Source of the DNA: Candidatus Aerophobetes bacterium Ae_b3b
GTDB taxonomy: Bacteria > Aerophobota > Aerophobia > Aerophobales > AE-B3A
Direction: 5' to 3'
NCBI GenBank assembly: GCA_005223085.1
Contig: NJBP01000001.1
Span: 25,304-89,303 of the forward strand
DNA length: 64,000 bases
Part shown: piece after piece, positions 19,916-28,161 of the stretch
Numbering within the stretch: position 1 is the stretch's first letter
Layout of the letters: the number at the start of each line of letters is the position of its first letter
Position numbers and translations under genes: made by a program
The notes under the pieces: model-generated
Databases searched by the model: none
What the model saw: the letters and a program-made list of their open reading frames with translations, nothing else
Told to the model about the DNA's origin: nothing

Positions 19916-21007
19916 TTATCTTACGTGTCCCTCCAGGAGAAAGTCTCCTCCCATCTTTTTGACTGAGTTAATTTCTATGAAGGGAGTTTCTTTTAAGAAG
20001 TCAACTCCTTTTCCTTCAACCCATGTCAGGGCTCCTCTTCCTCCTATTATCCGGGGAGCAAGAAAAAGGAAGATCTTGTCCACGCTTCTTTTTTCAAAAA
20101 AGGACCCAATTACTTCTCCTCCTCCCTCTACTAAAAGATTCATTATTTCGAGTTCACCTAGCTTTTTCAGAACCTCCTCCAGACCCACCTTTCCGTCTTC
20201 CTCTCCCATTATGGCTACCTTAATTCCTTTCTTCTCTAATTGCAGGAGTTTATCTTTATCTGACCATAGGGTTGTGAAGACGAAGGTGTCAGCTTTGTCT
20301 TGATCCTGTAAGATGCGCGCCTTAAGAGGAATTCTTAGTGAGCTATCCAGGACAATACGAGCAGAGTTTTTCTTGAAAGGCGGAAGAAGTGAGGGGTCAT
20401 CCCTAATTATCGTATTCACCCCAACCAGGATGGCATCTACACGATCTCGCAAGCGGTGAGCGAGTCGACGTGATTTTTCGTTGGTAATCCATTTGGATTC
20501 ACCCTTATAGGTGGCGATCTTTCCGTCTAGACTGGCCGCTGCTTTTACTATCACAAAGGGAATTCTCCTTTTCATAAATTTTAAAAAAGCCTCATTTACC
20601 TTTTCTGCTTCTTCTTTCAAGATCCCAACCTCAGTCTCTATTCCCCCTTTTTGTAGCTCCTCGATTCCCTTGCCTGAGTTTACTGGATTGGGATCCAGGG
20701 TAGCTGCTATTACCTTTTTAATTCCAGCTTTGATTATTTTCTGGGTGCAGGGAGGGGTTTTTCCCCAGTGAGAACAGGGCTCCAGACTTACGTATAAAGT
20801 AGCCCCTTTTGCCTTGGCTTTGGCCTTCTCGATAGTCTCTACCTCAGCGTGAGGACCTCCGAAATAGCGATGATATCCCTGGGCAATTATGGTCTCATTT
20901 TTTGCGAGTACAGCTCCTACCATAGGATTTGGAGATACTTTTCCTTCTCCCTTTTTCGCTAAAGACAAGGCCAACCTCATCCATTTTTCTTTCATTTTTA
21001 AAATCAC
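19916..21007 (-). CDS. ribD: Bifunctional riboflavin biosynthesis deaminase/reductase RibD
   Basis: A 363-residue enzyme for steps 2 and 3 of riboflavin synthesis. The N-terminal deaminase has the zinc ligands in PHAEVETI and EPCSHWGKTPPC. The C-terminal reductase (from about 150) has KAAASLDGKIAT, SKWITNE, DAILVGVNTIIRDDP and the VEGGGEVIGSF loop. The frame opens with GTG at 21007; the ATG at 20995 (MKEKWMRLAL) fits the family start equally well, and neither has a strong ribosome site. No other rib genes are in the window. Confidence 0.95.
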   Translation of the reverse strand: MILKMKEKWMRLALSLAKKGEGKVSPNPMVGAVLAKNETIIAQGYHRYFGGPHAEVETIEKAKAKAKGATLYVSLEPCSHWGKTPPCTQKIIKAGIKKVIAATLDPNPVNSGKGIEELQKGGIETEVGILKEEAEKVNEAFLKFMKRRIPFVIVKAAASLDGKIATYKGESKWITNEKSRRLAHRLRDRVDAILVGVNTIIRDDPSLLPPFKKNSARIVLDSSLRIPLKARILQDQDKADTFVFTTLWSDKDKLLQLEKKGIKVAIMGEEDGKVGLEEVLKKLGELEIMNLLVEGGGEVIGSFFEKRSVDKIFLFLAPRIIGGRGALTWVEGKGVDFLKETPFIEINSVKKMGGDFLLEGHVR

Positions 21008-21129: not shown

Positions 21130-22146
21130 TTAAAGGAGATTCTCTTTAATTAATAACTCAGCAATCTGAATGGCGTTCAAAGCTGCTCCCTTACGAAGGT
21201 TATCAGCTACAATCCAGAGGTTAATCCCATTTTTGATTGATTTGTCTTTTCTAATTCTGCCCACAAAGACCTCATCTTTTTCTGCTGCTTCTAAAGGTAA
21301 AGGATATAGATGATCATCTATATTATCCTGCAGGATGACTCCGGGAGCTCGGGACAAAATCCTCTTTACTTGGGGTACGGAGAGTTCTTTTCCCATTTCC
21401 ACGGTTACCGCTTCGGAGTGGCCAATAAATACCGGCACCCGGACGCAGGTTGCCGTTACGGCCATACGATCATCTTCCATAATCTTTTTGGTCTCGTTGG
21501 CTAGCTTTAACTCCTCTTCAGTGTAGCCATTGGGTAAAAACTGTCCTATATGGGGAATAAGATTAAAGGCAATTTGATGAGGATAAACCTCCTTTTTAAT
21601 TTCTTCTCCCTTTAGCCATTGTTGGATCTGATCTTTAAGTTCCTCCATTGCTTCTCTTCCCGTTCCAGAGACTGCCTGATAGGTGGAAATGATCAACCGT
21701 TTAATACGTGTTATTTGATGAAGAGGATTTATAGCCACCACTAACTGAATGGTAGAGCAATTAGGATTTGCAATAATGCCTTGATGATTTTCGAGAGCGT
21801 CCGGATTCACCTCAGGCACCACCAGAGGTACTCCGGATTCCATCCTGAAGGCACTTGAGTTATCCACAACAACTGAACCCTTTTTCACAGCTTGAGGAGA
21901 GAATTCTTTGGAAATTTGGGCCCCCGCTGAAAAGAGAGCTATTTCCACACCTCTGAAAGAGGCGCTACTTAGCCTTTCTACCTTCAGATTTTCTCCGCAA
22001 AACCTTAAGACTCTGCCTTCCGATCTTTCTGAGGCAATTACTCGAAGATTTCCCACAGAAAAACTGCGTTCTTCCAGGATACGTAACATCTCTTCTCCTA
22101 CAGCTCCAGTTGCTCCGACTACAGCTACATTATAACCCTTGCTCAA
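21130..22146 (-). CDS. asd: Aspartate-semialdehyde dehydrogenase
   Basis: A 338-residue enzyme that reduces aspartyl phosphate with NADPH for lysine, threonine and methionine synthesis. It has the nucleotide loop VVGATGAVGEEM, the catalytic cysteine in NPNCSTIQLV, and the family segment YQAVSGTGREAM. The TTG start is supported by AGGAGG 7 bases upstream. It overlaps the aspartokinase regulatory fragment by 4 bases, so the two pathway steps are translated together. Confidence 0.95.
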   Translation of the reverse strand: MSKGYNVAVVGATGAVGEEMLRILEERSFSVGNLRVIASERSEGRVLRFCGENLKVERLSSASFRGVEIALFSAGAQISKEFSPQAVKKGSVVVDNSSAFRMESGVPLVVPEVNPDALENHQGIIANPNCSTIQLVVAINPLHQITRIKRLIISTYQAVSGTGREAMEELKDQIQQWLKGEEIKKEVYPHQIAFNLIPHIGQFLPNGYTEEELKLANETKKIMEDDRMAVTATCVRVPVFIGHSEAVTVEMGKELSVPQVKRILSRAPGVILQDNIDDHLYPLPLEAAEKDEVFVGRIRKDKSIKNGINLWIVADNLRKGAALNAIQIAELLIKENLL

Positions 22147-22649
22147 GTATCGGCCTCCTTATCCAGTTCAAATTCTCTGTGAATAACTCTTACTGCCCGC
22201 TTTCCTTCTCTTTTTTTAACCGCACAAGAAATCTTTATCTCTGAGGTGCTTATCATATCAATGTTTATTCCTTCTCTACCCAGAGCAGTAAACATACGAG
22301 CAGCTACCCCCGGGTGAGACTGCATTCCTGCCCCTACTAAGGAAACTTTGGCCATATCTGAATCGTAAATTACTTCTTTAACTTCGGTCTTTTGCTTTAT
22401 CTTTCCCATAACTTCCTTAACGTCGTTCAAATCTCCTTCTTCTACGGTGAAGGAGATATCATTGGTTCCTTCTTTCGCACTACTCTGTACGATCATATCA
22501 ACATTGATGTTTGCCTCAGCCAATCCTTTAAATATGAAACCAGCCATCCCAGGCTGATCTGGTACTTGTTTAATAGTTACCTTGGCCTCTTTTTCATTAA
22601 GGACAATCCCTGAGACGATAAAACGTTCCATAGATCCTTCTTTAATCAA
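22143..22649 (-). CDS. lysC: Aspartokinase regulatory (ACT) part, separate reading frame
   Basis: A 168-residue frame holding the two ACT domains of aspartokinase ([20 protein letters not shown] and [19 protein letters not shown], with STSEIKIS). It overlaps the catalytic fragment by 8 bases in another frame; a +1 shift (or loss of one base) would join them into a normal aspartokinase. The TTG start follows AAAGGAGGGG at a workable distance, so it could be made as a separate subunit, comparable to the beta subunit of Bacillus-type aspartokinase. A sequencing error cannot be excluded. Confidence 0.85.
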
Positions 22650-23367
22650 TTATTGTCCCCTCCTTTTGGTTAAAGCTGGAACGAGTATGTAATCGAACTC
22701 CATATTTTTTGGCTATTTCTACCGCTCGTAGATGGATGACCTGTGCACCTCCACTGGCTAGTTCCAGCATCTCTTCATAGGAGATGCGGGGAAGCTTTCT
22801 AGCCTGAGGAACTATTTGAGGATCAGCCGTATATACACCTTCCACATCGCTGCAAATTTCGCAAAGATCAGCTTTCAAAGCAGCCGCCAGAGCTACGGCC
22901 GTAATATCCGAGCCTCCTCTCCCCAAGGTAGTGATATCATTTTTGAGGGTAGCTCCCTGGTAGCCAGCTACTACAACGATTTTCCCCTTTTTCAGTTCCT
23001 CGAGGATCCTTCTGGTTTCAATTTTTTGAATGCGAGCCCTGGTGTGAGCCTCATCGGTAATTATCCGCACCTGAGGTCCGCTAAAGGCGATGGCAGACTC
23101 TCCCAACCCATGAAGAGCCATGGTTAATAAAGCACAGGAAACCATTTCTCCACTGGAAAGAAGTAGATCTAGTTCCCTTTTTGGGGGATACGGGTTAACC
23201 TGGTGGGCAAGATTAAGTAATTTATCGGTAGTATCTCCCATAGCTGAGACAACCGCTACTACTTTTTTGCCTTTCTTTTTTACCCCTACTATCCTTTCAG
23301 CAATCGCTTTAATCCTCTCCGGACAACTCAGTGAACTCCCCCCATATTTTTGTACCACCAGAGACAA
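22642..23367 (-). CDS. lysC: Aspartokinase catalytic part, separate reading frame
   Basis: A 241-residue amino-acid-kinase domain that phosphorylates aspartate. It has the VQKYGGSSL start, [26 protein letters not shown] (nucleotide and aspartate site) and [18 protein letters not shown]. It stops at EGTIID, where intact enzymes continue directly into the ACT domains. The TTG start has GAGGAAG upstream. It begins 13 bases after pncB, in the likely order pncB, lysC (two parts), asd. Confidence 0.9.
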
Positions 23368-23380
23368 TTTCTTCCTCTTC

Positions 23381-24559
23381 TTAACCTCTAGGCTCCTCCA
23401 GAAATGAAGGAATTTTTTCTAGTTGTTCAAGCACGTATTGTCTAATTTTTTGCGGAAAAGGAAGATTCTTGATGAGCTTACCTTCTTTGATTATAGGTTT
23501 CAAAAGAGGAACAAGTTCCCCTCCACAGCTACATTTTGCTACCGTCTCCTTGGAAGGAAGAATTAGACGAGTACCACAAGAGGAACATTGCCAGAGTTGT
23601 TTTTTTCCGGAACGCTTTCCCTTTTTAGAAAAAGGTTTTCCTTCAATCTCTACGATGTCTAATGAAAAATCTATCACTGGAGCATTGCTTATCCAGGTAC
23701 CTACTCCAAAGCTATCAACCACCTCTCGTAGCTCACGAATTTTCTTCTCATTGATCCCCCCCGAGACCAGAAGTTTTACCTTATTAAATCCCCTTAAGTT
23801 TAGTTCCCATCTCACCTCCTCTAAGAGTTTCAAAAGATCGCCTCTCCTCGAAGGAGGCGTATCCAGTCTCACACCAAAAAGATCTTTACCTAGTCCCTCA
23901 GCAACTCTCAGGGCTTCGAATTTTTCATCTGCTAAGGTATCTATAAGTGCCACTCGTCTCACTCTGGGTTCGATGACCTCATGGAACATTCGGGTGGCTT
24001 CTAAGGTGTCTCCGGCCAGCAAAATCAGGGCGTGGGGAATAGTTCCTATGGGCTCTTCTCCTAAATCTTGGGCACTTTTACTTACAGATATGCCATCACA
24101 TCCGCCGATGAAAGAAGCCCTGTCTATCATGGGGGTTATTCCAGGATGCATTCGCCTTGCCCCAAAATGGATAATAGATTTGCCATCGGCGGCTTTTTTG
24201 CAGCGGGCAGCCCGGGTAGCTACTCCCGAGGCCTGACAAATGAGGCCCAAAAGCGGAGTCTCATAGCACGCGAAATCACTGTAATTTCCCTCTATAAACA
24301 GAACAGGTTCAAAGGGATGAAACAGACTCCCCTCAGGCAAACCCCAGAGATTGATCTTTAATCCCTTAAGAAGATATGCTATCTCATCCAGACCTGCTAA
24401 AACTGCCCAGGGATAATCCAAGGGAAGAATCCGTGCCCTTACCTCTGCCGTAACCTTTTTATCTATATGTTTGGCTTTAAGAACCCTTACCGTTCTCTCA
24501 AAATAAACATCGGTGACCTTTCCCTTCTTAATATCATCAGGATTAGCAAGGTGGAACAT
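23381..24559 (-). CDS. pncB: Nicotinate phosphoribosyltransferase with C-terminal zinc ribbon
   Basis: A 392-residue enzyme that makes nicotinate mononucleotide for NAD salvage. Visible are [26 protein letters not shown], the catalytic-core stretch [22 protein letters not shown], and [13 protein letters not shown] with [11 protein letters not shown]. After residue 340 a zinc-ribbon tail follows, with CSSCGT and CSCGG, which is an addition to the core enzyme. The ATG at 24559 lies about 115 bases after the minus-strand half of the divergent promoter at 24680. Confidence 0.93.
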
Positions 24560-24679: not shown

Positions 24680-24747
24680 ATCATAATAACTATGGCTGGA
24701 AAGTCAACCAATTGGATGGTTGACTTACTAGTCAAAATTATTATGAT
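24680..24747. promoter_or_regulatory. Symmetric divergent promoter with nested palindromes
   Basis: Two perfect palindromes share one centre (24713.5): AAGTCAACCA/TGGTTGACTT (24701-24710, 24717-24726) and ATCATAATAA/TTATTATGAT (24680-24689, 24738-24747). Each strand thus carries an identical promoter, TTGACT-16-TATGAT: plus at 24720-24725 and 24742-24747, minus at 24707-24702 and 24685-24680. The plus half would drive the small basic gene at 24798, the minus half pncB and the aspartate genes. A dimeric regulator bound at the centre could control both. Confidence 0.75.
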
Positions 24748-24797
24748 TGTTGTTCCCATAAATTTTTTCCAGATAAAAATGAGATAATGAGGAGACA

Positions 24798-24911
24798 ATG
24801 ACTCAGTATGGAAGGAAACACTTGTCTAACCGAAAGCGAGTAGGCTATCGTAACAGGTCAACTAGGATCATTAAAGCCAAGCGCAGAAAAAAGAGAAAGC
24901 AAATCTCTTAA
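24798..24911 (+). CDS. Small very basic protein, resembles a short ribosomal protein L34
   Basis: A 37-residue frame: MTQYGRKHLSNRKRVGYRN, then RSTRIIKAKRRKKRKQIS. More than a third is Lys or Arg. SNRKR, GYRNRSTR and AKRRKKRKQ line up with the SNRKR, HGFRARM-T and RRAKGRKRL segments of bL34, but the central glycine-rich piece is missing (37 against about 44 residues). A TGAGGAG ribosome site and the promoter at 24720-24747 precede it. It faces mnmE tail to tail. rpmH normally stands upstream of rnpA and yidD, so the position is unusual. Confidence 0.5.
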   Translation: MTQYGRKHLSNRKRVGYRNRSTRIIKAKRRKKRKQIS

Positions 24912-24922
24912 TAGACCAGCTA

Positions 24923-26308
24923 CTATTTCCCGATGCAAAAATGAGAGAAGATCTGGTCCAGGATCTCGTCGGTTACCACTTCTCCGGTAATCTCTCCCAG
25001 CCGGGAGATCCCTTCTTTTAAATCAAGGGCTATTAATTCCTCCGAAAATTTCTTCCTTAAGCCACCAAGTGCCCTATTTACATGTTGTTTTGTGAGTTCA
25101 AGAGCACATTGTTGCCTCAAGGTTATGATAAGGGGGTTAGAAGTAGGAAGAGTTGCTTCTTTTAAGGCAAAGTTAGCTATTTCTTCTTTGAGTTGGGCTA
25201 GATTAATCTCTTGAGTTGCCGAAATTTCCACCATTTGCTGGCAGGGAAAAAAATATCTAATTCTTTCCTGGTCAACTTTCTGGGGTAGATCCACCTTATT
25301 TATAACCACCAATGTCTTTTTCTTTTCTATCTTTCTGAAAATAGACTCATCTTCTCGACCCAAAGGGCAACTCCCATCCACCACCAGCAGTATTATGTTA
25401 GCTTCCTCAATTTTGCTCCGAGTCCTTCTCACAGCTTCTTTCTCAACTTGGCTTTCGACTTCTCTAAGTCCTGCTGTGTCAATTATCCACAAAGGAAATC
25501 CTTTGATGATGATCATCTCTTCTATTGTATCGCGGGTGGTGCCAGGAGATCGGCTCACGATGGCTCTTTCCTTCTGAAGAAGGGTGTTCAAGAGACTTGA
25601 TTTACCAACGTTGGATTTTCCTATAATCACCGTCTTTAAACCCTGTCGATAGATTCTGCTGGTTTTACCGATTTCTAATAGAGAATCAATCATCCTTAGG
25701 ATCTGCTTGAGCTGGCTTTCTTTCTCTTGGCTCGTTGGCAGCACAATATCCTCATAGCTAAAGTCTATCTCCGCCTCCAAATATGAGAGAAGATCCACCA
25801 TTTTTTTCTTAATTCCATCAATCTTCCCGGATAGATCCCCCTTCAACTGATGCACGGCTATCTCTAGATCTTTCTCTGTCTTCGCCTGAACTATATCTAA
25901 CACACTTTCTGCCTGAGAAAGATCAATTCTTCCCTTTAAAAAGGCTCTTTTGGTAAATTCACCCGGTTCAGCTAGACGAGCTCCAAATTTTAGGGTGAGT
26001 TCAAGAGATTTTCTTAAAGGAATCGGGCCTCCATGACAGTTAATTTCTACAATGTCTTCTCGGGTATAAGTTTTGGGAGCTCGCATTAAGGTAAGCAGTA
26101 CCTCGTCCACAGGCTTCTCGGCCTCAGGGTCAACTATCCATCCATAGTGGGTTCTAAAAGAGGAGGTCCAGTCAATCTTCTTTCCTTGGGGAGATCGAAA
26201 TATTTTCTTAGCTATGGAAAAAGATCTTTCTCCACTCATTCGCACAATACCGATCCCGGATTCACCTACAGGGGTGGAAAAGGTGGAGATGGTATCTTCT
26301 AAACTCAT
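24923..26308 (-). CDS. mnmE: tRNA uridine-5-carboxymethylaminomethyl modification GTPase MnmE
   Basis: A 461-residue tRNA U34 modification GTPase that works with MnmG. The N-terminal folate-binding domain starts DTISTFSTPVGESGIGIVRMSG. The G domain shows GKSNVGKSSLL, the switch SRSPGTTRDTIEE, DTAG and NKVD. The chain ends in the conserved CIGK. It overlaps yidC by 4 bases. With mnmA at 4337, two enzymes acting on the same wobble uridine are in the window. Confidence 0.97.
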   Translation of the reverse strand: MSLEDTISTFSTPVGESGIGIVRMSGERSFSIAKKIFRSPQGKKIDWTSSFRTHYGWIVDPEAEKPVDEVLLTLMRAPKTYTREDIVEINCHGGPIPLRKSLELTLKFGARLAEPGEFTKRAFLKGRIDLSQAESVLDIVQAKTEKDLEIAVHQLKGDLSGKIDGIKKKMVDLLSYLEAEIDFSYEDIVLPTSQEKESQLKQILRMIDSLLEIGKTSRIYRQGLKTVIIGKSNVGKSSLLNTLLQKERAIVSRSPGTTRDTIEEMIIIKGFPLWIIDTAGLREVESQVEKEAVRRTRSKIEEANIILLVVDGSCPLGREDESIFRKIEKKKTLVVINKVDLPQKVDQERIRYFFPCQQMVEISATQEINLAQLKEEIANFALKEATLPTSNPLIITLRQQCALELTKQHVNRALGGLRKKFSEELIALDLKEGISRLGEITGEVVTDEILDQIFSHFCIGK

Positions 26309-28078: not shown

Positions 28079-28108
28079 ATTATACTTTACTTTATCTCTC
28101 TTTGTCAA
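28079..28108 (-). promoter_or_regulatory. Promoter of yidD-yidC-mnmE
   Basis: On the minus strand TTGACA (28108-28103) and TATAAT (28084-28079) are 18 bases apart, both full consensus. Transcription would start near 28072, about 13 bases before the yidD ATG at 28059. It is back to back with the plus-strand promoter at 28134. Confidence 0.75.
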
Positions 28109-28133
28109 GTGATGGAGGTTGATCGCATTAGCT

Positions 28134-28161
28134 TTGACCTTTGGCGAACTTTTTGTATAAT
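28134..28161 (+). promoter_or_regulatory. Promoter of the phasin-like gene
   Basis: TTGACC (28134-28139) and TATAAT (28156-28161) are 16 bases apart. The gene begins at 28226 after a strong AAGGAGGTGA ribosome site. Confidence 0.75.

Follow-up and report, generated by a model that had tools for sequence, protein, structure and literature searches.

A back-to-back pair of near-identical predicted promoters between pncB and a small L34-like gene in an Aerophobetes draft genome, possibly formed by inverted duplication

Between pncB and the gene of a small basic protein lies a 68-bp segment in which two promoter-like sequences with identical hexamers face away from each other around a common centre. 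This arrangement raises the question of whether the symmetry marks an operator that switches both directions of transcription, or whether it has a different origin. The analysis covers the window, that is, the whole 64,000-nucleotide stretch of DNA presented here. The genome to which it belongs (G000) is a 2.04-Mb draft of 86 contigs that is approximately 89% complete. A sister species of the same genus (G001) and other relatives served for comparison.

The elements of the segment are the following:

24680..24747, no strand: quasi-palindrome of 68 bp containing both promoters, with 26 of 34 pairs matching
24680..24707, minus strand: predicted pncB promoter, TTGACT-16-TATGAT, predicted start at about 24673
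24720..24747, plus strand: predicted promoter of the L34-like gene, TTGACT-16-TATGAT, predicted start at about 24754
24720..24735, no strand: small perfect palindrome TTGACT-TACT-AGTCAA within the right promoter, with no further exact copy in the genome

Both strands carry outward-pointing sigma-70-type hexamers with 16-nt spacers, and each promoter has 10 of the 12 consensus bases. By sequence, the site at 24680-24747 is thus a predicted back-to-back sigma-70 pair, defined as hexamers on both strands, a spacing of 16-18 nt and outward orientation. The -35 boxes are 12 bp apart, and the -10 boxes lie at opposite ends of the 68 bp. The original prediction gave the exact coordinates and hexamers, the 16-nt spacer length and the separation of 12 bp between the -35 boxes, and its divergent sigma-70-type promoters are borne out by the same TTGACT-16-TATGAT arrangement on both strands. 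Its description of the symmetry as perfect holds only in part. The nested arms do share one centre, at 24713/24714: the outer arms ATCATAATAA and TTATTATGAT occupy 24680-24689 and 24738-24747, and the inner arms AAGTCAACCA and TGGTTGACTT, which match perfectly and lie midway between the -35 boxes, occupy 24701-24710 and 24717-24726. Overall, however, the symmetry is imperfect: the 31-nt arms are 84% identical, and full matching is confined to two 10-bp blocks in each arm, one at the -35 and one at the -10 box. These symmetric blocks consist of the promoter elements and a few flanking bases.

Promoter-like sites in the region numbered 10, compared with 11.3 in shuffled sequences, which is no excess. 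The activity of both promoters is predicted from the consensus in an uncultured organism, and both may fire. The best reading is that these are two nearly identical, ordinary housekeeping-type promoters pointing apart, and that the site is a lineage-specific case of a known kind. Divergent pairs of promoters occur commonly, and the site as such is therefore ordinary.

We assessed how unusual the symmetry is. With 26 of 34 matching pairs, the segment is the best even-centred palindrome of its size in the 64-kb window, to which this statistic applies; 60 random first-order Markov sequences used as the control peaked at 23. Two identical promoters facing apart necessarily constitute an inverted repeat; this accounts for the shared centre, and part of the symmetry follows from the promoters themselves. 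Outside the hexamers, the two promoters agree at 14 of 19 positions; among the 7,871 pairings of promoter-like sites within the window, 2 reach this level, one of them being this pair. Genome-wide, back-to-back -35 cores numbered 64, compared with 48 for the reversed control, a mild excess only. The genome contains one copy each of the 131-bp region and the inner 26-bp palindrome. This rules out an insertion element and also a mobile repeat, one of the outcomes that the original prediction had named as fatal to its claim.

Leftward, the segment is followed by an operon with these genes:

23381..24559, minus strand: nicotinate phosphoribosyltransferase (pncB), NF006415 at 499 bits against a cut-off of 243
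22642..23367, minus strand: catalytic half of aspartate kinase, by family match
22143..22649, minus strand: ACT regulatory half of aspartate kinase, a separate overlapping gene, by family match
21130..22146, minus strand: aspartate-semialdehyde dehydrogenase (asd), by family match
19916..21007, minus strand: riboflavin deaminase/reductase (ribD), which follows asd in G001 too

These family matches confirm the identities first proposed for pncB, aspartate kinase and asd, and G001 keeps the same gene order of pncB, two aspartate kinase genes, asd and ribD. The catalytic and ACT genes (22143-23367, minus strand) overlap by 8 nt in different frames, and the ACT-half gene has a TTG start preceded by an internal ribosome-binding site. 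Across the order, the two halves likewise lie in different frames or apart in relatives. An Rfam search of the window gave no hit; a riboswitch in the leader, or any known RNA of another kind there, is accordingly rejected.

Rightward, two genes adjoin the segment:

24798..24911, plus strand: 37-aa basic protein, probably a short, diverged bL34 (rpmH), with a good ribosome-binding site
24923..26308, minus strand: mnmE, convergent with the L34-like gene, by family match

Homologues of the 37-aa protein with 47-89% identity are present in G001, G002, G005 (two copies), G006, G009 and G010, and the 15 nucleotide differences between the G000 and G001 genes comprise 11 synonymous and 4 non-synonymous changes; the reading frame is therefore a real gene. 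It was found in about half of the 17 draft genomes of the order. Its likeliest identity, judged from sequence, is a shortened and diverged bL34. A bL34 would be expected to show a C-terminal G(F/Y)R...RRRKGRKRL core in a genome with no other L34; a profile comparison with the C-terminal half of bL34 covered 24 columns with a probability of 64% (P 6e-5). The G000 protein itself gave no match to PF00468 or TIGR01030 above the cut-off; among eight family members, three match PF00468 (best E 0.012), one matches TIGR01030 (E 0.2), and one also touches an SRA-like ribosome-associated family (E 0.013).

Across the order, no L34 above the Pfam cut-off was obtained from any of the 17 genomes, and the 36-37-aa L34-like protein (24798-24911, plus strand; L053-L058 and L061) may replace L34 in this order. 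Neither a recognisable L34 nor the L34-like protein was seen in about half of the drafts, and G005 has two differing copies of the gene, L144 and L141, on contigs C27 and C133. A title-level literature search on L34 loss in candidate phyla returned nothing specific. Elsewhere in the window, a second tight divergent pair is present at 28079-28161, with TTGACA-18-TATAAT leftward to yidD-yidC-mnmE, TTGACC-16-TATAAT rightward, and -35 boxes 25 bp apart. The usual order of that cluster is rpmH-rnpA-yidD-yidC; rpmH and rnpA were not seen in the yidD-yidC cluster near this second pair.

The two directions were originally proposed to exclude each other unless a dimeric regulator intervenes. Such a regulator would use the inner palindrome, AAGTCAACCA-N6-TGGTTGACTT, or the smaller TTGACT-N4-AGTCAA, as an operator that switches both directions. 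The perfect inner arms and their position midway between the -35 boxes are consistent with this, shared operators are frequent between divergent genes, and plasmid pLS20 exemplifies a real switch built from overlapping divergent promoters and a regulator (PMC4207663). The genome, however, offers no good second site for the inner palindrome, with none at up to 2 mismatches and one unconvincing site at 3, and TTGACT-N4-AGTCAA is near the control level, with 6 sites within one mismatch against 4 in the control. A regulon for either element is accordingly rejected. Searches of the approximately 89% complete genome with PF02829 and PF21906 (NiaR, NrtR) gave no match while the controls matched, which rejects an operator of a known NAD repressor, and no regulator gene is adjacent. 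The palindrome is also missing in G001 although the pncB promoter is retained there. With no indication of a dimeric regulator, we consider an operator distinctly unlikely, though a regulator of an unfamiliar kind might act at this site alone.

Comparison with G001 places the segment at a rearrangement. The pncB promoter of G001 is identical at 26 of 31 nt, with hexamers and spacer kept, and the DNA upstream of its -35 box is unrelated to that of G000. Conservation of the palindrome before pncB, proposed earlier as a check, is thus absent in the sister species, which has kept the left promoter alone. The alignment defines one further feature:

24709..24775, no strand: junction of 67 bp between the pncB block and the rpmH-mnmE block

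On the pncB side, homology with G001 ends at 24708, the base adjoining the -35 box, and it resumes at 24776 in the rpmH-mnmE block; the intervening 67 bp, which include the right promoter, do not align to G001 at either of its two equivalent positions. Only G000 has the right promoter and the adjacency of pncB and rpmH. In G001, a DUF498-like gene (identified by eye) precedes the L34-like gene, and pncB faces a divergent 314-aa gene. These two neighbours adjoin each other in G000, on another contig, which indicates a reciprocal exchange of neighbours between the genomes, and the exchange junction in G000 coincides with the centre of the palindrome. In the remaining relatives, the L34-like gene has yet other neighbours, and pncB commonly follows an ABC-transporter ATPase-like gene (judged by eye). 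The stretch before the L34-like gene of G001 (L142, 295-443) contains short degenerate repeats (GATCAGTGAGCAGTGGTCAGTGGTTAGTG) and no clear promoter. In G001 and the other relatives examined, pncB does not adjoin the L34-like gene. The proposed link of NAD and aspartate metabolism with a ribosomal protein therefore most likely reflects a chance gene order that arose recently in a single lineage.

A junction unique to G000, at an inverted repeat where misassembly is possible and in an incomplete draft of 86 contigs, might instead be a chimeric join in the metagenome assembly. The site, however, lies inside a long contig with genes and start regions intact on both flanks, and one chimeric join would not also produce the complementary junction on another G000 contig, where the DUF498-like gene lies beside the 314-aa gene. 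An assembly artefact is therefore highly improbable.

The arms themselves bear on the origin of the symmetry. Over 31 nt, the left and right arms differ at 5 positions, the left arm and G001 at 5, and the right arm and G001 at 9. Of the 5 positions at which left and right differ, 4 have the G001 base in the left arm; of the 5 at which left and G001 differ, 4 have the base of G000 in the right arm (chance of 4 of 5, P ~0.02). The left arm is thus intermediate between the right arm and G001, which fits copying of the right arm from the left after the species split. This comparison, which rests on 31 nt and one sister genome, suggests that the right promoter is an inverted copy of the left made after that split.

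The left promoter would accordingly be placed as the inherited pncB promoter, and the right one, in lineage-unique DNA at the rearrangement junction, would be its inverted copy, formed by snap-back or template-switch duplication. This copy would have given the relocated rpmH-like gene its promoter, and the symmetry would be mainly a trace of origin and not an operator. Each promoter would bind RNA polymerase alone, with core footprints that abut or overlap, and strong occupancy of one side would lower the other without a dedicated regulator. We assign a probability of roughly 0.55 to this explanation as a whole: two ordinary promoters, the second derived by inverted duplication at the junction, with possible polymerase competition. 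Firing from both promoters, the direction and mechanism of the duplication, and the competition are what we infer within it. That the rearrangement set a ribosomal-protein gene beside the pncB promoter and that a snap-back reverse copy now drives this gene, the two being coupled regulator-free by polymerase competition, is a more tentative proposal, to which we give clearly less than even odds. The breakpoints showed neither a direct repeat nor a donor sequence, and a narrow literature search for promoter origin by inverted duplication found nothing.

Homogenisation of two older promoters by template switching is an alternative that would look similar. In a related account, rpmH already had its own sigma-70 promoter, the rearrangement set two similar AT-rich promoters back to back, and the additional symmetry is due to chance or to later template-switch homogenisation. 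In some relatives, for example G004, G009 and G010, pncB or the L34-like gene is preceded by a promoter of sigma-70 type, and template switching is known to homogenise the arms of imperfect inverted repeats (PMC8604942, PMC7202029). Agreement at 14 of 19 non-hexamer positions is nevertheless rare, and nothing resembling the right arm is found upstream of the L34-like gene of G001; we consider this account unlikely on balance. If the reversed-copy origin is true, the locus is a small, readable case of a displaced gene gaining a ready-made promoter in one step, and its operator-like palindrome is a mutation scar, which advises caution in motif-based prediction of regulators.

The geometry originally emphasised, promoters near enough for RNA polymerases to interfere, holds up at 12 bp between the -35 boxes. 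RNA polymerase footprint sizes are established, and if both promoters work, the upstream footprint edges would meet or overlap between these boxes, so that competition is possible. Mutual exclusion of the two directions is plausible from this arrangement. On pLS20, polymerase can bind just one of two overlapping promoters (PMC4207663). At the five E. coli bidirectional promoters studied in PMC12825309, competition was seen only with one side strongly activated, the basal level of activity being insufficient for it; mutual exclusion is therefore not to be assumed as the default.

The pLS20 Pc/Pr pair (PMC4207663) resembles the present site in that divergent promoters lie within reach of one polymerase footprint and one side can hinder the other. 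The pLS20 promoters, however, are unequal in strength and are served by a dedicated regulator and DNA looping, whereas here hexamers and spacers are identical, no regulator was found, and the genes are housekeeping genes. The bidirectional promoters of Warman and colleagues (PMC12825309, PMC10268837) share with it symmetric DNA, divergent transcription (predicted in the present case) and potential polymerase competition. They have one shared -10 region and start sites 7-25 bp apart, whereas this locus has two full promoters with predicted starts about 80 bp apart; with -10 boxes at opposite ends of 68 bp, it is not a bidirectional promoter as defined in PMC10268837, where the -10 elements coincide or overlap. 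Finally, in quasipalindrome template-switch mutations (PMC7202029, PMC8604942), inverted repeats are created or homogenised from the other arm, and an arm here likewise looks copied; the present case differs in that the stretch that appears copied is a whole promoter at a rearrangement junction.
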